This document shows, piece after piece, positions 29,531-57,486 of a DNA stretch of 57,486 nucleotides. Where the stretch lies: assembly GCA_021811805.1 (NCBI GenBank), contig JAKAQA010000002.1:1-57486 (forward strand), read 5' to 3'. How positions within the stretch are numbered: position 1 is the stretch's first letter; each line of letters opens with the position of its first letter. The DNA is from a bacterium. GTDB taxonomy: Bacteria > SZUA-79 > Acidulodesulfobacterales > Acidulodesulfobacteraceae. A model generated the notes under the pieces. That model worked only from the letters and a program-made list of their open reading frames with translations, searched no databases and had not been told where the DNA came from. The position numbers and the translations under genes are program-made.

Positions 29531-29807
29531 GTTTAAATTAGCCAAGGCGACTGCCCTGCGATACGACCCTAAAAAAAATAACGCTCCGGTCGTTATATCA
29601 AAAGGCAGGGGAGAGCTTGCCGAAAAAATTATCGAAATCGCAAAAAAAGAAAATATACCTATAACTAAAAATAACGCGCTTGCCGATATACTCGACGGGT
29701 TGGATATTTACCAGGAAATTCCGCCCGAACTTTATAAGGCGATAGCGAATATTTTTGCGTTTTTGTACGAGTTAAACGAAAAAGCCGTTAAACCGTCCCT
29801 TTCATAG
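29517..29807 (+). CDS. flhX: FlhX: stand-alone FlhB C-terminal domain homologue
   Basis: 96 aa. Matches the part of FlhB downstream of the autocleavage site: FKLAKATALRYDPKKNNAPVVISKGRGELAEKIIEIAKKENIPITKNNALADILDGLDIYQEIPPELYKAIANIFAFLYELN. Compare FlhB at 13146 (FAVALKYDNKKYNAPVVLAKGADNLALLIKKIAKENDIPTVENK). The NPTH motif and membrane domain are absent, so it mimics the cleaved C-terminal fragment. Such proteins occur in many flagellated bacteria and can partly substitute for the FlhB fragment in substrate switching. Its 3' end overlaps the convergent PilZ gene by 20 bases. Confidence 0.88.
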   Translation: MKESKFKLAKATALRYDPKKNNAPVVISKGRGELAEKIIEIAKKENIPITKNNALADILDGLDIYQEIPPELYKAIANIFAFLYELNEKAVKPSLS

Positions 29808-30507
29808 CGCCGACTATTTCCCGCTGTCTTCTTAATATATACTTAAACAAAACATCCTGCTCGGCAGGTTTTAAATTGATAGCCTGAGCGCCTACTTTAT
29901 ATTTAAGATTGTCGAGTCTGGCTATAGACCTTATTTCCATTCTTACCGTAATTTCCTTCAGTCCGCCTGGAAATTGAATTTTTACGCCCTCTAAAACGGT
30001 ATGTTTTTCTAAGGGGAAATCGAGCAGAAAAGAAAGTCCATCGCCGGACAGGTCGAACAGTACCGAATCGAAATATTTATTATTCAGAAAGAAAGAAATT
30101 TTTACCGGTTCGTTTAAAGAAGGTTCTATCCTGAAAAACTTTCTTTTTTCGAGAGATAATATTTCTATAGGCTTATAAATTTCGAAGACGAAATAATCTC
30201 CTTCTTTTTCGTAATTATATAATTTTGAAAGAAAGAAATGCTCATTACTGCCGAATTTAAATGCGGCTTTAATATAGGAAGATTCGATAAGTTTTAAATT
30301 CCCCGATTTGGGAACCATAGAATCTATAGCGATAGATTCGTCTTTGACTTTAAGTATATTAGTCGTATATTCGTCGTTGAAAGGAACCGGATAAAGAATA
30401 ACCGGTTTTTTCTGGTTGGCGAACCCTTTAAGTATGGCGTTAATTTCCTGCTTTTTGGAATATACGTTAATATCGGGATTTTCTTTCAGTTTTTTAATAT
30501 CGAACAT
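29788..30507 (-). CDS. YcgR-like PilZ-domain protein
   Basis: 239 aa. The N-terminal domain (residues 15-110) resembles the YcgR/PilZN partner domain (QEINAILKGFANQKKPVILYPVPFNDEYTTNILKV). The C-terminal PilZ domain carries both c-di-GMP-binding motifs: EKRKFFRIEPS (RxxxR) and DLSGDGLSF (D/NxSxxG). YcgR-type proteins bind c-di-GMP and slow the flagellar motor. It converges on flhX with a 20-base overlap and is followed by the DsrE-like gene's 5' neighbour on the same strand (15-base gap). Confidence 0.86.
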   Translation of the reverse strand: MFDIKKLKENPDINVYSKKQEINAILKGFANQKKPVILYPVPFNDEYTTNILKVKDESIAIDSMVPKSGNLKLIESSYIKAAFKFGSNEHFFLSKLYNYEKEGDYFVFEIYKPIEILSLEKRKFFRIEPSLNEPVKISFFLNNKYFDSVLFDLSGDGLSFLLDFPLEKHTVLEGVKIQFPGGLKEITVRMEIRSIARLDNLKYKVGAQAINLKPAEQDVLFKYILRRQREIVGAMKGTV

Positions 30508-40328: not shown

Positions 40329-41369
40329 TTATTCCGTATTTCTTCTGTCCACTATTACATTCGACCCCGACTTTTCTTTTGCTATGGATTTTAATCCGGA
40401 AACTATTTCGCTTATCTGTCCGTAATGCGAAATTTTTTTGCTTACGTCTTCGATAACCGCGATAGACAGGCTCATTACCGGAAATCTCCGCATTTTTTTT
40501 TGCCTGTCGTACGATTCTATATATCCTCTTTGTTTGTCCGTATTATCGTAAAACGACAGTATGATTTTATCGAAGTTGCATATTACGGTATTTGAAATGT
40601 CTATTATATCGCCGGAATGAGACATAACGACAAAATCGTCTCCGCCGATATGTCCTATGAATACGTATTTCTCGATATCCCTGCATCTTGTTTTAGATAT
40701 GTCGTAAACGGTAGTCGCAATGAGCCTGGACGTCATCATAATAACTTCGTCTCCCCTTAAAAAGCCGTATTTGTCGTTATAGGATTTGAAATTGTCAATA
40801 TCGATATAGGCAAAAGAAAAATTAACGTCTTTATCGAGTTTATCCTTAATCGATTCCATTATAGAGGAATTTCCGGGCAGTTTTGTCAGCGGATTTGCGT
40901 CTAATGCGGATTTAGAAGCGTGTATAATGCTGTCTATTTTATATTCCAGTTCGTATGGATCAAGAGGCTCTTTAATGTAATCTTTCAAAAAATATTTTTC
41001 GTCTTTTACGACGTTAAAATCGAAATCCGCCGGCAGCATAAAAAGAATAGGAATATTGCTCAGCATATTATCCAGCTGCATGTCGTTAATCATCTTAATC
41101 TCTTTTTTATGCGCTCCGCTGTCTTTTCCCGAAATCGCGTTCATCGCAATAATGATTAACTGCGGCGGCGAAGCATAAACGGAATAATATGCCTGATTGA
41201 ACGAATCGAATATCTTAAAATCGTATCTATCCAATTCTTCCTTAAAAACATTATTATATGGAGAGTTTTTATCCGATACTATAAAAATTTTAGGCTTATT
41301 AATAATGTTTTTATCTTTATTCATATAGAATCGGGAATCGGAAATTAATCTTTTATGCAGCCGGTTCAA
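40329..41369 (-). CDS. GGDEF-domain protein with degenerate receiver domain
   Basis: 346 aa from a TTG at 41369, directly after the HDOD stop; an ATG at 41324 (residue 16) is the alternative and neither has a clear ribosome site. The N-terminal half is receiver-like (KIFIVSDKNSPYNNVFKEELDRYDFKIF... IKEPLDPYEL), but the acceptor Asp position reads IIIAMNAIS, so it probably is not phosphorylated. GGDEF domain from about 165: AYIDIDNFKSYNDKYGFLRGDEVI and the active-site loop GGDDF. No RxxD inhibitory site is seen before GGDDF. A likely diguanylate cyclase. Last gene of a minus-strand set with HDOD. Confidence 0.82.
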   Translation of the reverse strand: MNRLHKRLISDSRFYMNKDKNIINKPKIFIVSDKNSPYNNVFKEELDRYDFKIFDSFNQAYYSVYASPPQLIIIAMNAISGKDSGAHKKEIKMINDMQLDNMLSNIPILFMLPADFDFNVVKDEKYFLKDYIKEPLDPYELEYKIDSIIHASKSALDANPLTKLPGNSSIMESIKDKLDKDVNFSFAYIDIDNFKSYNDKYGFLRGDEVIMMTSRLIATTVYDISKTRCRDIEKYVFIGHIGGDDFVVMSHSGDIIDISNTVICNFDKIILSFYDNTDKQRGYIESYDRQKKMRRFPVMSLSIAVIEDVSKKISHYGQISEIVSGLKSIAKEKSGSNVIVDRRNTE

Positions 41370-49318: not shown

Positions 49319-49681
49319 GTGACCGAAGAAAAGCTGTTGTATTTTAAAAACATACTCGCCAAGAAGCTGGATAGCCTCCTTGACGAAGCTTTAAAGACGG
49401 TAGATACGATGACGAAAGAAGACGATAACTTTCCCGACCCTACTGACAGGGCGACGCTGGAATCGGATAGAAATTTCGAGCTGAGAATCCGAGACAGGGA
49501 AAGAAAACTTATTCCGAAGATAAAAGATGCGCTCGAAAGAATAGAAAACGGGACTTACGGCGTATGCGAAGAATGCGGCGAAGAAATTTCAGAAAAGAGG
49601 CTGGAGTCGAGACCCGAGGCCACAATGTGCATTGTTTGCAAAACCAAGGAAGAAGAACTTGAAAAAAAATCTAATATCTAA
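49319..49681 (+). CDS. DksA/TraR-family zinc-finger regulator
   Basis: 120 aa from a GTG start (GAGGGG ribosome site). Coiled-coil pair with the tip DPTDRATLESD, matching the DksA DPADRAT loop, then RDRERKLIPKIKDALERIENGTYGVCEECGEEISEKRLESRPEATMCIVCKTKEEELEK with a four-Cys zinc finger (CEEC/CIVC). Such proteins bind RNA polymerase through the secondary channel and mediate the ppGpp response. Shorter than enteric DksA (151 aa). Genomes often hold several family members, so no gene symbol is given. Confidence 0.88.
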   Translation: MTEEKLLYFKNILAKKLDSLLDEALKTVDTMTKEDDNFPDPTDRATLESDRNFELRIRDRERKLIPKIKDALERIENGTYGVCEECGEEISEKRLESRPEATMCIVCKTKEEELEKKSNI

Positions 49682-49697
49682 TAAATTAGGATAAATA

Positions 49698-50102
49698 ATG
49701 ATATACCGTTCTAATAAAATTTGTCCGCGCAAGCGCATTCTTATAGTCGAAGACAACAGGATGCACGCCGAACTTTTAAATATTATCATCCGCTCGTCTT
49801 TCGACGCCGATATAACCGTTGCGGAAAACGGCAGTGATGCCCTTGATAAAATTACCGAAGGCCGTATTTTCGACCTCATAATAATAGACATAATGCTTCC
49901 GAAGATAAACGGACTCGACGTTCTTAAAACTATCAGGAAAGTTTACGATAGAGTTCCTATTCTAATGCTCAGCGCGCTGAACGATAAGGAAATCATAGCC
50001 AAAAGCTATGCCGAAGGCGCTACGGATTATGCGGCAAAGCCTATCAGAAACGAAATGCTGAGAGATAAAATCGGCGTTTTGCTCGGAAGCTGCGACTTAT
50101 AA
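49698..50102 (+). CDS. Single-domain response regulator
   Basis: 134 aa receiver: RILIVEDNRMHAELLNIIIRSSFDADITVAENGSDALDKI, phospho-acceptor in LIIIDIMLPKINGLDVLKTIRK, and Lys in DYAAKPIRNEML. No output domain. First of three signalling genes (with the hybrid kinase at 50214 and the DivK-like protein at 53209), likely a partner of that kinase. Confidence 0.9.
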   Translation: MIYRSNKICPRKRILIVEDNRMHAELLNIIIRSSFDADITVAENGSDALDKITEGRIFDLIIIDIMLPKINGLDVLKTIRKVYDRVPILMLSALNDKEIIAKSYAEGATDYAAKPIRNEMLRDKIGVLLGSCDL

Positions 50103-50213: not shown

Positions 50214-53174
50214 TTGAAGAGACAGGATAACTTTATGAGCGGTATCATGGCAAAAATATTGTTATACGGCGGCGGAAACGCCGCAAAAACTCTTATCGGT
50301 ATGTTTCGGGGCGACAAAAACATCGAGATAACAGCTTTAGTTGCCAGAAACTTAGACAAAGAAGGGGCGGTCTTAGCTAAAGAACTAAATATAAAATCTT
50401 TCAAAACTATTAAAGAAGCCAAAGTTCACGGCATAGATTTCAATATAATTTTTAATCTGACGGGCCGGCCGGAAGCGGAATTGCCGGAACTTGTCGAACT
50501 TCACGACACCGGAATAGAAATTATAAATTCTATTAGTTCTAAACTAATTTACGACCTTCTTTACGACAGGCACAAAAACCATATCGACAAAGAAAGCATC
50601 ATTAAGCAGTTAAGAGAGCGGAAAGCATATTTTAAAAACATCCTCGACGATTCGTTCGATATGATTATGGTTACCGACCGCCGCGGTGCAATTACGGAAT
50701 TTAATAAAGGCGGCGAAAATATGCTCGGTTATTCTCGTAAAGAAGTCATGGGAAAGCATGCCTCCGGTTTTTATATCAATCCGGAAGAAAGAGACGATAT
50801 TTTAGAAAAACTTAAAATAGACAAATTCGTCGCAAATTACGAAACGCTCCTCAGGAAAAAAGACGGCAGTCCGGTGGATATATCTCTTACTATATCCCGC
50901 ATCATGGATAAAAACGGCGATATAATAGGAACTATCGGTATTTCAAAAGATATTACGGATAAAAAGTTTCAGGAAAAGAGGCTTAAAGAACTTAACGAGA
51001 ACCTCGAAAATAAGGTCATCGAAAGGACGAAACAGCTTGAGGAAATCAATAAGGAACTGGCAAGGGCAAACGAGTTAAAATCGAAATTTATCGCAAATAT
51101 GTCCCATGAACTGAGGACGCCGCTTAATGCGATTATAGGCTATTCCGACCTTCTGAACGATTCTCCCGATTTAAGCGCAAAGCATAAAAAATATACCGGC
51201 AATATATTGGTATCGGGCAAACATCTTCTCCAGCTTATTAACAATATACTCGACATATCCAAAATAGAAGCGGGGATGTTCTCCCTCGAATATTCGGTGT
51301 TTTCCATTAAAGAAGCCATAGACGAAGCTATCGTCGTTTTAAGATCGCTTGCCGGAAAAAAGAATCTTGCCATAACGGTAGATTATAAATGTTCGGACGG
51401 CTATAAACTTTATTCCGACAGAGTTAAATTTAAGCAGATAATATACAACCTGTTAAGCAACGCCATCAAATTTTCTTTTGAAAATACGGAAATCAAAGTC
51501 GTATGCAAAAATATCCCCCTTTCTTTAGACATTAAAACCAAATTTAATTTCAATTTTAAAAAGTACGGTAAGCCGCACGGTAAAATGTTCGAATATATAC
51601 AGATAGACGTTATAAACAGGGGCATCGGCATAGACGACAATTTTAAAAATAAAATATTCGAGGAGTTTACGCAGGCGGACAATAATTATTCGAGACAGTA
51701 CGAAGGAACCGGCCTGGGACTCGCCCTTACCAAAAAAATAGTAGAACTTCACGGCGGGCATATAGATTTCGAATCGGTTAAAAACGATTTTACGGATTTT
51801 ACGTTCATTCTTCCTAATCCCCTCGAAACGGAGGTATCGGCTATAAGCGCCGAAGACGCCGAAAAAACTTTGATAACCGTAGATGCAAAAACCTTTTTCA
51901 GGGACAATAACGTAAAAAGAAATAAGCCTCTCGTTTTAGTAGCCGAAGACGATAGGCCGACTTCCGAAATATTTACGATAAATTTAGTAAATTCGGGATA
52001 TTCGGTCGCCCATGCGTACGACGGCATCGAAACGGTTGAAAAAGCCAAAAGTCTAAAGCCGTTCGCTATTCTTTTAGATATAATGCTTCCCAGAAAAGAC
52101 GGCTGGGAAGTTTTGAACGATTTAAAATCCGATAAAGATACAAAAAACATACCCGTAATTATTACGAGCATTATAGATAATAAAGATTTAGGATTTGCGC
52201 TTGGGGCGACGGATTATCTTATAAAGCCTATCGACAAAGAGACCCTTATCCATACATTGTCGCAGTTCACTCTTACATCTAAAAGGAAAAGAAGGCAGGT
52301 AAATATCTTATTAGTGGACGACGACCCCGTCATTCATAAAACGATAGAAAAACTGCTTGTCGGGGAGGGCTTTAATTTAGTCCACGCTTACAGCGGCGAA
52401 GAAGGGCTTAGAATGGCGATAGAACTTAAGCCCGACTTAATACTGCTGGATTTAATCATGCCGGACATAGACGGATTCGAGGTGGCGGAAAATATCAAAA
52501 AACACCCTATATCAGCCCAGATACCTATATTTATAATAACATCTAAAGATTTGACGGTGGAAGAAAGATTGAGGCTTTCCGGCAACATAGAAAGGATAAT
52601 CGGCAAAAAATCGTTTTCTGCCGAAGAACTCAGCCGCTCTATAAGGGAGCTCGAACTTATATATCCTCAAAAAGCCGGTTTGTTCGACGAAATTACGGGG
52701 CTTTTAGACCATAACTATTTTAACATAAGGCTCGCGCAGGAGATTAACAGAGCTAAAAGATACAATATCGTTTTCAGCGTGGTCTTTATGGACATCGACA
52801 ATTTTAAAGAATACTGCGATTTGGTGGGAAATTTTCATTCCGACATAGCCCTTAAAAAAATATCGGAAATGCTTAAAAAAATGTTGAGGGGTTCGGACGT
52901 AGTAGTCAGGTTCGGCTACGACGAATTTGCCATTATACTTAACAATACTTTAAAAGAAGCGGCGGCTTTCGTAGCAAGCAGGTTCTGCTCTGTCGTCAGG
53001 GATTATCCTTTTTATAAAGAAGAAGAAATGAAATCTAAAAAATTAACCGCCTCTTTTATAGTCGCTTCCTTTCCTCAAGACGGCGAAACTCCGGAGGAAC
53101 TGATTTCCAAAATATACAACAGGCTGTGCGACGTTAAGAATTCGGGGGGAAATGCCGTAGCCGAAATAAGCTGA
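50214..53174 (+). CDS. Hybrid histidine kinase: Rossmann-like / PAS / HisKA-HATPase / REC / REC / GGDEF-like
   Basis: 986 aa. Domains in order: a Rossmann-like fold at about residues 13-120 (AKILLYGGGNAAKTLIGMFRGDKNIEITALVARNLDKEGAVLAKELNIK), PAS at 135-255, coiled coil, HisKA with MSHELRTPLNAIIGYS (about 310), HATPase with NAIKF, GIGIDD and EGTGLGLAL. Then REC1 (LVLVAEDDRPTSEI... LLDIMLPRKDGWE), REC2 (ILLVDDDPVIHKT... LLDLIMPDIDGFE), and a C-terminal GGDEF-like domain with GYDEF (FRFGYDEFAI region), which may still be active. A similar N-terminal NAD-binding-like domain is known on some deltaproteobacterial kinases. Alternative Mets at residues 8 and 12. No membrane segment: cytoplasmic. Confidence 0.88.
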   Translation: MKRQDNFMSGIMAKILLYGGGNAAKTLIGMFRGDKNIEITALVARNLDKEGAVLAKELNIKSFKTIKEAKVHGIDFNIIFNLTGRPEAELPELVELHDTGIEIINSISSKLIYDLLYDRHKNHIDKESIIKQLRERKAYFKNILDDSFDMIMVTDRRGAITEFNKGGENMLGYSRKEVMGKHASGFYINPEERDDILEKLKIDKFVANYETLLRKKDGSPVDISLTISRIMDKNGDIIGTIGISKDITDKKFQEKRLKELNENLENKVIERTKQLEEINKELARANELKSKFIANMSHELRTPLNAIIGYSDLLNDSPDLSAKHKKYTGNILVSGKHLLQLINNILDISKIEAGMFSLEYSVFSIKEAIDEAIVVLRSLAGKKNLAITVDYKCSDGYKLYSDRVKFKQIIYNLLSNAIKFSFENTEIKVVCKNIPLSLDIKTKFNFNFKKYGKPHGKMFEYIQIDVINRGIGIDDNFKNKIFEEFTQADNNYSRQYEGTGLGLALTKKIVELHGGHIDFESVKNDFTDFTFILPNPLETEVSAISAEDAEKTLITVDAKTFFRDNNVKRNKPLVLVAEDDRPTSEIFTINLVNSGYSVAHAYDGIETVEKAKSLKPFAILLDIMLPRKDGWEVLNDLKSDKDTKNIPVIITSIIDNKDLGFALGATDYLIKPIDKETLIHTLSQFTLTSKRKRRQVNILLVDDDPVIHKTIEKLLVGEGFNLVHAYSGEEGLRMAIELKPDLILLDLIMPDIDGFEVAENIKKHPISAQIPIFIITSKDLTVEERLRLSGNIERIIGKKSFSAEELSRSIRELELIYPQKAGLFDEITGLLDHNYFNIRLAQEINRAKRYNIVFSVVFMDIDNFKEYCDLVGNFHSDIALKKISEMLKKMLRGSDVVVRFGYDEFAIILNNTLKEAAAFVASRFCSVVRDYPFYKEEEMKSKKLTASFIVASFPQDGETPEELISKIYNRLCDVKNSGGNAVAEIS

Positions 53175-53208: not shown

Positions 53209-53586
53209 ATGCGCCATAAAATTCTTATAGTAGAAGACAACGCTATAAATCTTGATTTAATTATAGCTATGCTGGAGCCGTTCGATTTAGATATAATAAC
53301 GGCGGAAGACGGTTACAAGGCGCTGAAAAAAACGAACGAGAATCCCGATATTTCTCTGATACTGCTTGATATAGGACTTCCGGGGATAGATGGGATAGAA
53401 GTGTTCAGAAGGCTGAAATTCATAAATGCGTCTAAAGATATTCCGGTCGTCGCGGTTACCGCCCACGCCATGGCAGGCAACAAAGAGTATCTTATGTCTT
53501 TAGGCTTTAACGATTTCGTCGCAAAACCGATAGATAAAAACATACTCTACGAAAAAATAAGGGAATATTTAAAACTTGACCGATAA
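53209..53586 (+). CDS. DivK-like single-domain response regulator
   Basis: 125 aa: KILIVEDNAINLDLIIAMLEPFDLDIITAEDGYKALKK, acceptor in LILLDIGLPGIDGIEVFRRLKF, and VAVTAHAMAGNKEYLMSLGFNDFVAKPIDKNILYEKIREYL. This is the classic DivK/hybrid-kinase receiver type. It lies 34 bases after the hybrid kinase and its end overlaps the thioesterase gene by 11 bases. Probably a phosphorelay output of the kinase. Confidence 0.9.
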   Translation: MRHKILIVEDNAINLDLIIAMLEPFDLDIITAEDGYKALKKTNENPDISLILLDIGLPGIDGIEVFRRLKFINASKDIPVVAVTAHAMAGNKEYLMSLGFNDFVAKPIDKNILYEKIREYLKLDR

Positions 53587-54013
53587 CTTTAAATTCTATA
53601 CGGAGCTGAAGGTTAGGTACGAAGAGACCGATGCTATGTCCGTCGTTTATTACGGCAAATATTTCGTTTTTTTCGAAGTGGCTAGAACCGAGTATCTTAA
53701 AAATATAGGCTATAATTATACCGATATAGAGAAAGAAGGCTTTTACTTCGTAGTAGCCGAGTCGAACTGTAAATATTTCAATCCCGCAAGATATGACGAC
53801 GATTTGAAAATATTTACAAAAGTAGAATATATAAAAAATTCCAGTTTTAATTTCGTTTATGATATAGTAAAAACCGCCGAAAACGAAACCGTTCCGGACG
53901 TAAAAATCGCCTCCGGCGGTACGGTTCTCGTCTGCGTCGATAATACCGACTTCAAGCCCCGCCGCATCCCCGAATATTTAAGGAAAGCCGTTCAGGATTT
54001 CGAAAGATTTTAA
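53576..54013 (+). CDS. YbgC/4HBT-type acyl-CoA thioesterase
   Basis: 145 aa from a TTG start at 53576 that overlaps the preceding gene. No ATG exists before the catalytic motif, so a TTG or similar start is needed. Hotdog-fold motif VRYEETDAMSVVYYGKYFVFFEVARTEYLKNIGYNYTDIEKEGFYFVVAESNCKYFNPARYDDDLKI is typical of YbgC-like thioesterases (catalytic Asp in ETDAMSVVYYG). It hydrolyses acyl-CoA thioesters; the substrate is unknown. The last chromosomal-looking gene before the T4SS group. Confidence 0.88.
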   Translation: MTDNFKFYTELKVRYEETDAMSVVYYGKYFVFFEVARTEYLKNIGYNYTDIEKEGFYFVVAESNCKYFNPARYDDDLKIFTKVEYIKNSSFNFVYDIVKTAENETVPDVKIASGGTVLVCVDNTDFKPRRIPEYLRKAVQDFERF

Positions 54014-54230: not shown

Positions 54231-54743
54231 ATGTTAAACGAAGCAAAGGTTAAAATTTTCTATTGCTTAGCCGCGATTAACGGTTGTTCGCTCAAAATTG
54301 CCGCCGGAATTCAGGCTGAAATTTACGCCGAAGATTTTCGTTTTAAAAAATCCCGGAAAAATCTCAAAAAGATTTTATTATCGGCTTTTGTTTTCGGTTC
54401 TATTTTATCAGTAGGCCGATATGCGTTTGCCGTTATAAATTTAAATCAGGGGTCTCTGGGCATAGGGGCATCCGGAATTTTAAACGAGGCGGCCACATGG
54501 ATATGCTACAGGCTTGCTCCGGCTACCCTGACTATAGGCCTCGTCAAAGGATTTTACGATATAAAACAGCATAAGCCGGATGCGGCAAGAAAAGCGTTTA
54601 TAACCGCCGCCGCAGGAACGGGAGTTATGCTTGCTCCTACTATAACCGGGGCGATACTCGGAATAGTCCAGAACGCGGGAGGCGCCGCCGGAGGAATTAA
54701 TATGGGAGGCGGAAACGGCGCTACTATCGTAGGGCAGCCGTAA
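54231..54743 (+). CDS. VirB2/TrbC-like pilin subunit
   Basis: 170 aa. A strong ribosome site (GGAGG) supports the ATG, which leaves about 45 polar residues before a signal-like hydrophobic stretch (KKILLSAFVFGSILSVGRYAFA). Two further hydrophobic segments follow: WICYRLAPATLTIGLVKGFYDI and AFITAAAGTGVMLAPTITGAILGIVQNAGGAAGG. Signal plus two helices is the VirB2/TrbC pilin layout. Sequence similarity is weak; the VirB3-like and VirB4-like genes downstream make the call plausible. The 217-base gap before it is AT-rich with no clear promoter. Confidence 0.6.
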   Translation: MLNEAKVKIFYCLAAINGCSLKIAAGIQAEIYAEDFRFKKSRKNLKKILLSAFVFGSILSVGRYAFAVINLNQGSLGIGASGILNEAATWICYRLAPATLTIGLVKGFYDIKQHKPDAARKAFITAAAGTGVMLAPTITGAILGIVQNAGGAAGGINMGGGNGATIVGQP

Positions 54744-54776
54744 TATGCAACCTTAAATCAACGTTAAAATTTTTTT

Positions 54777-55127
54777 ATGAAAGAACAAAATCAAAATAAT
54801 CAAAATAATAATAAAACCGGCGGCGGCAACGGCGGTTATGCTGAATTTAAAATTTATAGCGGCATATACGGCAAAGTAACGAGGTTCGGATTAGAAATTT
54901 ACGACTGGGGACTTTTTATATTTCTTACTATGCTTTCTATCCTTTTATTGAAAAAAATTATTATTATCGCAATATTATCAGATGCCGCCGTTTTAATTTT
55001 CTTAAAAAAATATAAAAAGGATAAGCCGGATTTTTATACAAGTTCGTTGCTGTCTTTTATATTTGCTAAAAAAGAGCTTTATGTTTTAGACCCGGAGCAG
55101 GATAAAAAATTTGATTTATTAGATTAA
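54777..55127 (+). CDS. VirB3/TraL-like T4SS membrane protein
   Basis: 116 aa. A polar Asn/Gly-rich start (EQNQNNQNNNKTGGGNGG), the motif IYSGIYGKVTRFGLEIYDWGLFIF, then two close membrane segments (LFIFLTMLSILLLKKIIIIAILSDAAVLIFL) and FYTSSLLSFIFAKKELYVLDPEQ. The pattern of a short basic/aromatic start followed by a helical hairpin fits VirB3 and F-type TraL, inner-membrane proteins beside VirB4. Between the pilin-like gene and the ATPase, the usual order. Confidence 0.7.
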   Translation: MKEQNQNNQNNNKTGGGNGGYAEFKIYSGIYGKVTRFGLEIYDWGLFIFLTMLSILLLKKIIIIAILSDAAVLIFLKKYKKDKPDFYTSSLLSFIFAKKELYVLDPEQDKKFDLLD

Positions 55128-55139
55128 TTAATTTAATTT

Positions 55140-57486
55140 ATGTTTTTAAATTCGGTATTAAAAAAAATAGATACGGACGCTTCTTTAAATCATTACGTCA
55201 ATCTTTTGTCCGTAAACGACGGCATAGCCGCGGGGATAGACGGGTCGTTTACTATTGGCTTCTCGGTCAGAGGTTTCGATTATTATCTCGCCGGAAACGA
55301 AATTATCAACGACGCGGCATACGTAAACGACCTTCTGCTGAATCTGCTGGACGAAAATATAAACCTTCAATGGGTTTATAAAATAGAAGACAGAAACGAG
55401 CGTTTTATTTCCGATTACGAAACGTTTTCGACGCCCCCGGAAGATTTTAAATATATTAAAGAAAATAAAATTAAACATTTAAAGTCAAAACCAATCAAAA
55501 ATATTAAGATATATCTGTTTTGTTCTTTTAACGGCTTGAATCTGCATGCAAAAGAGGAAAGAATAAATATTCTGCCTAAAGTTTTTGATTACGCCTCAGG
55601 CCTGTTTAAATTTAAATTTGCCGGAGCGGTTAATTCAGTTTCGAGAAATAATGCCCTTGCCGATAAAAAGTTCATAGAAAAAAAATTAATGAATATAGAA
55701 AATAATCTGAGCTTTATATCCTCAAGATTAGATATAGGCTTGAGGAGGATGGGAAATCAGGAGCTCGTGGATTATTTTTATGCCGAATTGAATCCATCCA
55801 GGTCTCTAAGCATTAAAGCGCCGTTGTGGGAAAGTATGCTCGACGATTCCACTTTCAGGAGCCAGCTCATATATTCCTGCGCGGAAATTAAAAGAGATTT
55901 TTTTTATATCGACGGATACTATTATAAATTTATAAATATGCACAGGCTTCCGTCGCGCGCCGATTCTTTCGGAATAACTTCCATTTTGAATATCGGCGGT
56001 TCCGCGGGAAATTTTTTCCCTTACGATATTTCCGTCGCCTTCAATATTCCCGGACAGGAAAAAACAATAGAAAAAATACAAACCGACAGAAATATAAAGG
56101 CAAGCCTGACCGAAGCCGTGGGCGGCGGATATACCGATTATAAAGGGGCGAATATTACCGAACAGTTGGACGAATTTTTAAAATCCGTTTCTAAACTTCA
56201 AAAGAAAGTAGTGGAGTTTTCGCTATGCGCAAGGATTAAATCTAAAAATTTAGACGAACTCGGTTCTATGGCGGTAAAACTTCTCGAATCGTTCAAGAAC
56301 TATAACGGAATGGAAGGAATAATAGACAATATGGAGCACCATAATCTTTTTCTTTCTTTTCTCCCCGGACAGTCCCGTTTTAACAGGCGGTTTAAGACAT
56401 CTATTTCTTCTTCGGCGGCGGCGTTTTTTCCGCTTAACGAGGGTTTTGCCGGAACCGAAAACTGCGCCGTTCCTTTGATAAACGACAGGGGGGAGGCCGT
56501 AAAATTAGACCTTTACAACAACCGTTTGCCGTCAAAGCACGGAATAGTCTTCGGAAAGACGAGAAGCGGAAAGGGATTTATGCTTAACGGATTTTTAAGC
56601 AATTTTTATATATCGGGAGATAATTATCATATTATAGGCGTGGATATAGGAGGAACTTACAAAAAGTTCTGCAAAATATTTAAAGGCGATTATATAGAAA
56701 TAGATTTAGACGGAAGCTACTCCATAAATCCGTTTCCTCCCAAAAAATACGCCGTTAAGGAGATTAACGGCGAAGAGGCGTTCGACCCGGATATTATGGT
56801 GTTTTTGACCGGAATAATCGGGCTGATGGCGGAACCGGAAAAAAATTTATCGCCGAACGATAAAACTATCATAACGCGGGCCGTTCAGGCGGCATACGAC
56901 GGGATAGCAGATATGGACGATATGCCGGTAATATCCGATATTAACAACATTTTGTTCGATTACGGGGAGGCAAGGGACGTTTTCGATAAAAAAAGGGCTA
57001 TGGAAATGGGAAAAAATTTATTTCAGTGGACGGATATTTCTTCCCCTTACGGAATGCTTATTAACAGAAAAAAGGGAATAAATATAGATAATAAAATAGT
57101 AATATTCGACCTTCAAAAGCTAAAAGGGCATGAAGACCTTCAAAAAGTCGTTTTTGCAATAATAAAAAATATATCTTTTAAAAAAATGTACGATAAATCG
57201 GCAAAAGTCTTTTTCTTTTACGACGAATGCTGGGAATTTATGAGCGACCCGAAAATTTCGGAACTGATAATGCACCTTTATAAAACTTCGGCGAAATGGG
57301 GTTCTATGGTATGGAGCATTACCCAGGAGCCTGGAGACCTTTTAAAAGCCGGAAATATCGGCAAAAGCATTATAGAAAATTCATCCGTAAAGATATTCTG
57401 CCAGCTTGACGGCGGCGTTTCGGCGGAAGATTTAAAATTATGCGGCCTCAATGAAAAAGAGATGAATATAGTAAAAAATCTTAAAG
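55140..57486 (+). CDS. VirB4/TraC-family T4SS ATPase (3' end beyond window)
   Basis: Absent from the ORF track because it runs off the edge. ATG 55140, 782 codons open to the end. The N-terminal half resembles the TraC/VirB4 regulatory domain. The ATPase part has Walker A GIVFGKTRSGKGFMLNG and Walker B VFFFYDECWEFM, plus IGVDIGGTYKKFCKIFKGDYIEIDLDGSYSINPF and WGSMVWSITQEPGDLL. The residue after the Walker A Lys is Gly rather than Ser/Thr (GSGKG type), which is unusual. It powers pilus or DNA/protein transfer. Twelve bases after the virB3-like gene. Confidence 0.86.
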   Translation, partial: MFLNSVLKKIDTDASLNHYVNLLSVNDGIAAGIDGSFTIGFSVRGFDYYLAGNEIINDAAYVNDLLLNLLDENINLQWVYKIEDRNERFISDYETFSTPPEDFKYIKENKIKHLKSKPIKNIKIYLFCSFNGLNLHAKEERINILPKVFDYASGLFKFKFAGAVNSVSRNNALADKKFIEKKLMNIENNLSFISSRLDIGLRRMGNQELVDYFYAELNPSRSLSIKAPLWESMLDDSTFRSQLIYSCAEIKRDFFYIDGYYYKFINMHRLPSRADSFGITSILNIGGSAGNFFPYDISVAFNIPGQEKTIEKIQTDRNIKASLTEAVGGGYTDYKGANITEQLDEFLKSVSKLQKKVVEFSLCARIKSKNLDELGSMAVKLLESFKNYNGMEGIIDNMEHHNLFLSFLPGQSRFNRRFKTSISSSAAAFFPLNEGFAGTENCAVPLINDRGEAVKLDLYNNRLPSKHGIVFGKTRSGKGFMLNGFLSNFYISGDNYHIIGVDIGGTYKKFCKIFKGDYIEIDLDGSYSINPFPPKKYAVKEINGEEAFDPDIMVFLTGIIGLMAEPEKNLSPNDKTIITRAVQAAYDGIADMDDMPVISDINNILFDYGEARDVFDKKRAMEMGKNLFQWTDISSPYGMLINRKKGINIDNKIVIFDLQKLKGHEDLQKVVFAIIKNISFKKMYDKSAKVFFFYDECWEFMSDPKISELIMHLYKTSAKWGSMVWSITQEPGDLLKAGNIGKSIIENSSVKIFCQLDGGVSAEDLKLCGLNEKEMNIVKNLK

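Follow-up and report, generated by a model that had tools for sequence, protein, structure and literature searches.

A soluble hybrid histidine kinase with an N-terminal Rossmann module and a degenerate GGDEF tail, a candidate integrator of NAD(P)(H) and c-di-GMP signals

The window analysed here, a stretch of 57,486 nucleotides of contig JAKAQA010000002.1, encodes a hybrid histidine kinase that has a glycine-rich loop near its start and a GYDEF motif near its end, and the locus raises the question of what this kinase senses and whether c-di-GMP is its product or its signal. To our knowledge, few direct molecular links are known between cellular redox state and c-di-GMP, and under the search terms used no paper was found on Rossmann or NAD-binding histidine kinases or on GYDEF. 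Our reading of the whole, to which we give an even chance, is a soluble hybrid kinase that integrates nicotinamide cofactor, NAD(P)(H), and c-di-GMP signals. We describe it as a variant among known hybrid kinases, with a probable c-di-GMP receptor as its tail and a widespread input module, apparently of NAD(P) type, that has no name in domain libraries.

Architecture and location of the kinase

The coordinates of the kinase, its domains and its neighbours are given in Table 1. The reading frame begins with a TTG codon, which aligns opposite the ATG of the orthologue from sister genus g2. Pfam places PAS at residues 149-249, HisKA at 289-354, HATPase_c at 402-535, followed by two Response_reg domains and GGDEF at 824-980, and gives no match of any kind for residues 1-120; with the predicted fold of this N-terminal region the order is Rossmann-PAS-HisKA-HATPase-REC-REC-GGDEF. 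The sequence GGGNAAKT occupies residues 19-26, near the start as first described, and GYDEF residues 901-905. The protein has the residues expected of a hybrid histidine kinase, as H298, N416 (N-box), D622 and K671 are kept in 36/36 aligned kinases; an Hpt domain was not found in it by Pfam. Hydropathy in 19-residue windows reaches a maximum of 1.13, so the kinase has no membrane helix and, as judged from its sequence, is a soluble, cytosolic signalling protein. Both the domain order and the cytoplasmic location given in the original prediction are borne out. The full-length AlphaFold model, made with nine close sequences, has a mean pLDDT of 45 and is usable for the Rossmann and PAS regions only.

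Table 1. Positions of the kinase, its domains and motifs, and the neighbouring genes in the window
Feature	Position	Strand	Basis
Hybrid histidine kinase, 986 aa	50214..53174	+	ORF and Pfam; orthologues known
N-terminal Rossmann module, residues 12-126	50247..50591	+	AlphaFold, Foldseek, family alignment
A44-R45, end of beta-2, NADP-type signature	50343..50348	+	Family alignment
PAS domain	50658..50960	+	Pfam
HisKA domain; phosphoacceptor H298 at 51105-51107	51078..51275	+	Pfam, alignment
HATPase_c domain	51417..51818	+	Pfam
REC1; phosphoacceptor D622; approximate boundaries	51930..52262	+	Pfam, alignment
REC2; D746; acidic pocket intact in home phylum, degenerate in many relatives	52305..52634	+	Pfam, alignment
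Degenerate GGDEF domain, proposed c-di-GMP receptor	52683..53153	+	Pfam, alignment
I-site RxxD (R892 G S D895)	52887..52898	+	Invariant in 36/36 kinases
GYDEF, degenerate A-site motif	52914..52928	+	Alignment
Third I-site residue R923	52980-52982	+	Invariant in 36/36 kinases
DksA-type gene, conserved upstream neighbour	49319..49681	+	Pfam, gene order
Upstream single REC; orthologue is REC-HD-GYP in genera g2, g4	49698..50102	+	Pfam, gene order
Downstream single REC	53209..53586	+	Pfam, gene order
4HBT thioesterase, conserved downstream neighbour	53576..54013	+	Pfam, gene order

The N-terminal module and its ligand

AlphaFold2 was run on the module with nine sequences and gave the succession b1-aA-b2-aB-b3-aC-b4-aD-b5-aE, with a pLDDT of 83 overall and about 90 across the first 90 residues. 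In the PDB, Foldseek matches were for the most part to the domains with which dehydrogenases bind NAD(P) (acylating acetaldehyde dehydrogenase, archaeal GAPDH, meso-diaminopimelate dehydrogenase and Gfo/Idh/MocA); TM-scores normalised to query length lay at about 0.4-0.66. On these models the module almost certainly adopts the Rossmann fold that had been proposed for it. A search of its sequence against PDB chains found nothing significant (the best was shikimate dehydrogenase, E 0.18), it does not pass the curated family cut-off and no Pfam or NCBIfam name applies to it in the window protein. Most module members in other phyla also score below the curated Pfam cut-off, and few pass. A broader module profile, searched against whole genomes, weakly retrieves Rex (Put_DNA-bind_N and CoA_binding), Gfo/Idh/MocA and GAPDH proteins, its weakest matches including ordinary dehydrogenases.

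The module combines the beta-alpha-beta fold with the glycine loop GxGxx[GA] that characterises NAD(P)-binding Rossmann domains; the loop is mostly G[AG]G[KR]GG in other phyla and GGGxAA in the phylum of the window (the home phylum). In Rossmann enzymes an acidic residue at the end of beta-2 marks NAD, and its replacement pattern marks NADP. Here this position is D or E in 50/50 members from other phyla, and A or S followed by R in 14/14 from the home phylum. An NAD(P)-type ligand is, in our judgement, rather probable, and the replacement of the acidic NAD-type residue by A/S-R suggests that the home-phylum module takes NADP(H) rather than NAD(H), if the residue rule holds for this module as we infer. 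The NAD-type sensor of the original prediction is thus retained in its NAD(P)-type features, while the cofactor signature in the home phylum points to NADP(H) and away from NAD(H).

It is also conceivable, though on balance doubtful, that the true ligand is CoA, SAM, a nucleotide sugar or some metabolite, or that the module has none and serves solely in protein-protein docking. It carries no attached catalytic domain, formyltransferases, which do not bind NAD, are among its Foldseek matches, and the weak Pfam matches of far-phylum modules include CoA_binding. That name, however, is also the one Pfam uses for the NADH-sensing domain of Rex, which the module profile retrieves, and both the glycine loop and the split between D/E and A/S-R at the end of beta-2 obey the NAD/NADP rule. 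An NAD(P)-type ligand remains our preferred reading. The likeness to Rex and to Gfo/Idh/MocA lies in the Rossmann fold and the weak profile similarity, and Rex is a sensor of NADH/NAD+ without catalysis; in contrast to these proteins the module is free-standing, about 110 residues long and fused to signalling outputs, and has neither the DNA-binding domain of Rex nor a dehydrogenase catalytic domain. In genus g2 kinases (L122-L127) an Asn-rich insert of variable length, up to about 50 residues, lies between alpha-D and beta-5 of the module.

The GGDEF tail as receptor or cyclase

Positions of PleD were transferred to the kinase by spacing (D327 = D860, R359 = R892 etc.) and compared in 36 kinases, 21 from the home phylum and 15 from other phyla. 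The equivalents of the three I-site residues R359, D362 and R390 are all invariant (36/36). The A-site is eroded across the same family, as the look of GYDEF had led the original prediction to expect. The equivalent of G369 is Tyr in 21/21 home-phylum kinases, and the far-phylum motifs vary (GIDEF, GADSF, GGDSF, GSDTF, GMDEL and others). N335 is replaced in 30/36 kinases (Cys in the window protein), R446 in 35/36 (Gly, also in the window protein) and E371 in 8/15 far-phylum kinases, while D344 is Asn in 15/15 of the latter; this erosion differs from lineage to lineage. The combination that marks an active diguanylate cyclase, GG(D/E)EF together with the guanine- and phosphate-binding residues, is not found in the window domain, and the tail has probably lost cyclase activity.

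The home phylum retains the metal-binding residues D860 and D903, the tail matches the PleD model and its REC-REC-GGDEF layout is that of PleD. These features would suit a domain that has kept diguanylate cyclase activity, which might, as in PleD, depend on phosphorylation of REC1/REC2; on this view redox state would drive c-di-GMP synthesis by the kinase itself. Given the replacements at G369, N335, D344, R446 and E371 we consider this improbable. Because the I-site is invariant while the A-site is eroded, we read the tail as a likely receptor for c-di-GMP; the messenger would then more probably act on the kinase than be made by it. RxxD is present in 8/8 canonical GGDEF/GGEEF proteins of the window's genome, so RxxD alone is not special, and the weight lies on a full I-site that is kept while the A-site decays. 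The redox-to-phosphorelay and c-di-GMP coupling originally suggested is consistent with the NAD(P)-type features, the eroded GGDEF and the linked regulators, but its c-di-GMP direction is probably the reverse.

Degenerate GGDEF domains that bind GTP are on record (reviewed in PMC10333796). The remnant could likewise be a dimerisation or GTP-sensing element or bind some ligand other than c-di-GMP, RxxD being common in GGDEF domains, including the intact ones of this genome; yet the I-site is invariant in 36/36 down to the distant R390 equivalent, the guanine- and phosphate-binding residues are lost and the kinase genes are linked to HD-GYP phosphodiesterases, all of which makes this unlikely. 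For the preferred reading, a c-di-GMP receptor, there is a precedent in SgmT of Myxococcus xanthus, in which the C-terminal GGDEF of a hybrid kinase was shown experimentally to bind c-di-GMP via its I-site (PMC3509222). Both are soluble hybrid histidine kinases with a C-terminal GGDEF in which the A-site is degenerate and the I-site intact. SgmT is however a GAF-kinase-REC-GGDEF protein, an orphan with one receiver and no Rossmann module, whereas the window kinase has a Rossmann-PAS input, two receivers and linked REC/REC-HD-GYP genes; the N-terminal GAF and single receiver of SgmT are not seen in it, and GAF occurs only in most of its far members.

The window's genome encodes eight intact GGDEF/GGEEF proteins (likely cyclases), HD-GYP proteins and one PilZ protein. 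The last, the genome's one PilZ match, lies in the window (29788-30507, minus strand, 239 aa) close to flagellar genes, is YcgR-like by eye and is likely a c-di-GMP effector. The window's second GGDEF-like protein (40329-41369, minus strand, 346 aa) is divergent, having GGDDF but lacking RxxD where it is normally found, and is also encoded near flagellar genes.

Conservation of the locus and a possible signalling cassette

The kinase module is present in 22/30 home-phylum genomes in the same neighbourhood, so the architecture is not due to chance. As far as the contigs extend, the gene order in five genera and in the window is FlgJ-FliI-radical SAM (CofH/MqnC-like)-DksA-REC-kinase-REC-4HBT thioesterase, the visible exception being L121, where no thioesterase was recognised. 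A whole-protein search of the genome contigs returned 8 true orthologues, the remaining matches being ordinary hybrid kinases without the module. An apparent split of the kinase in L118 is due to a run of N in the assembly and was ruled out as real. The two flanking genes, predicted to be single-domain regulators, are both single RECs by Pfam and belong to the conserved unit. In place of the upstream single REC, genera g2 and g4 have a gene for a REC-HD-GYP protein with intact HDIGK and HHE..DG.GYP motifs, so the upstream REC of the window may be a remnant of such a gene, the HD-GYP output having probably been lost from the cassette of the window genus.

The N-terminal module profile also matched in 39/148 genomes of a phylum taken to be Nitrospirota and 19/198 genomes of one taken to be Desulfobacterota, and the broader profile added matches in the latter and some in a phylum taken to be Acidobacteria. 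Fifteen far-phylum matches are long hybrid kinases, 37-47% identical to the window protein in full-length alignments. In a Pfam scan, eight of these 15 and L197 shared the core order of the window kinase; most also carry a GAF, which either precedes PAS or takes its place. The kinase adjoins a REC-HD-GYP gene (upstream, n=7) or a single-REC gene (downstream, n=7) in 14/15 far homologues, with these neighbours confirmed by Pfam for examples and distances taken between stop-to-stop frames, which makes the true gaps slightly larger. L208 is a further case, in which the kinase frame is shorter and a REC-GGDEF frame comes after it. By these comparisons the kinase and regulators of similar type beside it occur together in at least three bacterial phyla, and the description of its domain order as rare does not hold.

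From the domains, predicted fold, residue conservation and linkage we infer the ligands, the phosphotransfer partners and the sign of regulation. The Rossmann module would bind a nicotinamide cofactor, probably NADP(H) in the home phylum and NAD(H) in relatives, and together with PAS would set autophosphorylation at H298. Phosphate would pass from H298 to D622 of REC1 and on to the separate receivers encoded on both sides; in sister genera and other phyla, where the upstream partner is a REC-HD-GYP protein, phosphotransfer would set its c-di-GMP phosphodiesterase activity. The REC-REC-GGDEF tail, its cyclase activity probably lost, would bind c-di-GMP at the I-site and feed the c-di-GMP level back onto the activity or location of the kinase.

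The best reading is a cofactor- and c-di-GMP-integrating kinase akin in logic to SgmT, ShkA and RpfC/RpfG. RpfC is membrane-bound, senses DSF and contains an Hpt domain. The RpfC/RpfG arrangement, a hybrid kinase gene adjoining a REC-HD-GYP gene, is seen in sister genera g2 and g4 and in 7 far homologues and not in the window, the window genus being without the HD-GYP part. Unlike RpfC, the window kinase is a soluble protein without Hpt, and its C terminus is REC-GGDEF. The C-terminal half resembles PleD in its domains and in REC2, which has degenerated in many relatives, but PleD is an active cyclase without a kinase, whereas this tail is kinase-fused and its cyclase site eroded. A single-REC protein in the cassette recalls DivK-type receivers of Caulobacter. 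ShkA, also of Caulobacter, is a hybrid kinase that can be turned on when c-di-GMP binds a receiver region located after the kinase core (PMC7010744). ShkA likewise has two tandem receivers and is controlled by c-di-GMP at its C-terminal region, but it lacks a GGDEF and its c-di-GMP site is on a pseudo-receiver, while REC1 of the window kinase is canonical.

A HisKA_3 (NarX-type) kinase also begins with the module, as do GGDEF proteins, with or without GAF, and sigma-54 activators, which is the distribution expected of an input domain. We propose, tentatively and at less than even confidence, a cross-phylum cassette in which the kinase compares cofactor state with c-di-GMP and sets c-di-GMP breakdown through REC-HD-GYP, one phylum having exchanged NAD(H) for NADP(H) as cofactor, and the Rossmann module being a general, unnamed cytosolic input domain of these three classes of protein. 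If this is true, domain libraries lack a name for a general redox input that is used in several phyla, and the compact cassette makes the redox/c-di-GMP link testable with purified proteins.

Two proteins (L249:484-1833 and L250:1402-2850) carry the module before a sigma-54 activator domain, with no receiver, and are possible redox-responsive enhancer-binding proteins. L218:1993-4401 is a kinase with two tandem Rossmann modules, PAS domains and HisKA, and its modules pass the GFO_IDH_MocA and NAD_binding_3 Pfam cut-offs. After the cassette (54231-57486, plus strand) lie genes resembling, by eye, those for a pilin of VirB2 type (54231) and an ATPase of VirB4/TraC type (55140); these follow it in the window genus, g4 and g6, and were not seen in g2 and g3. 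Between DksA and the upstream REC/REC-HD-GYP, genera g2 and g3 carry a further gene (L110:4484-5980 and L126:4784-6292), absent from the window genus, whose product of about 500 aa resembles glycogen synthase by eye.
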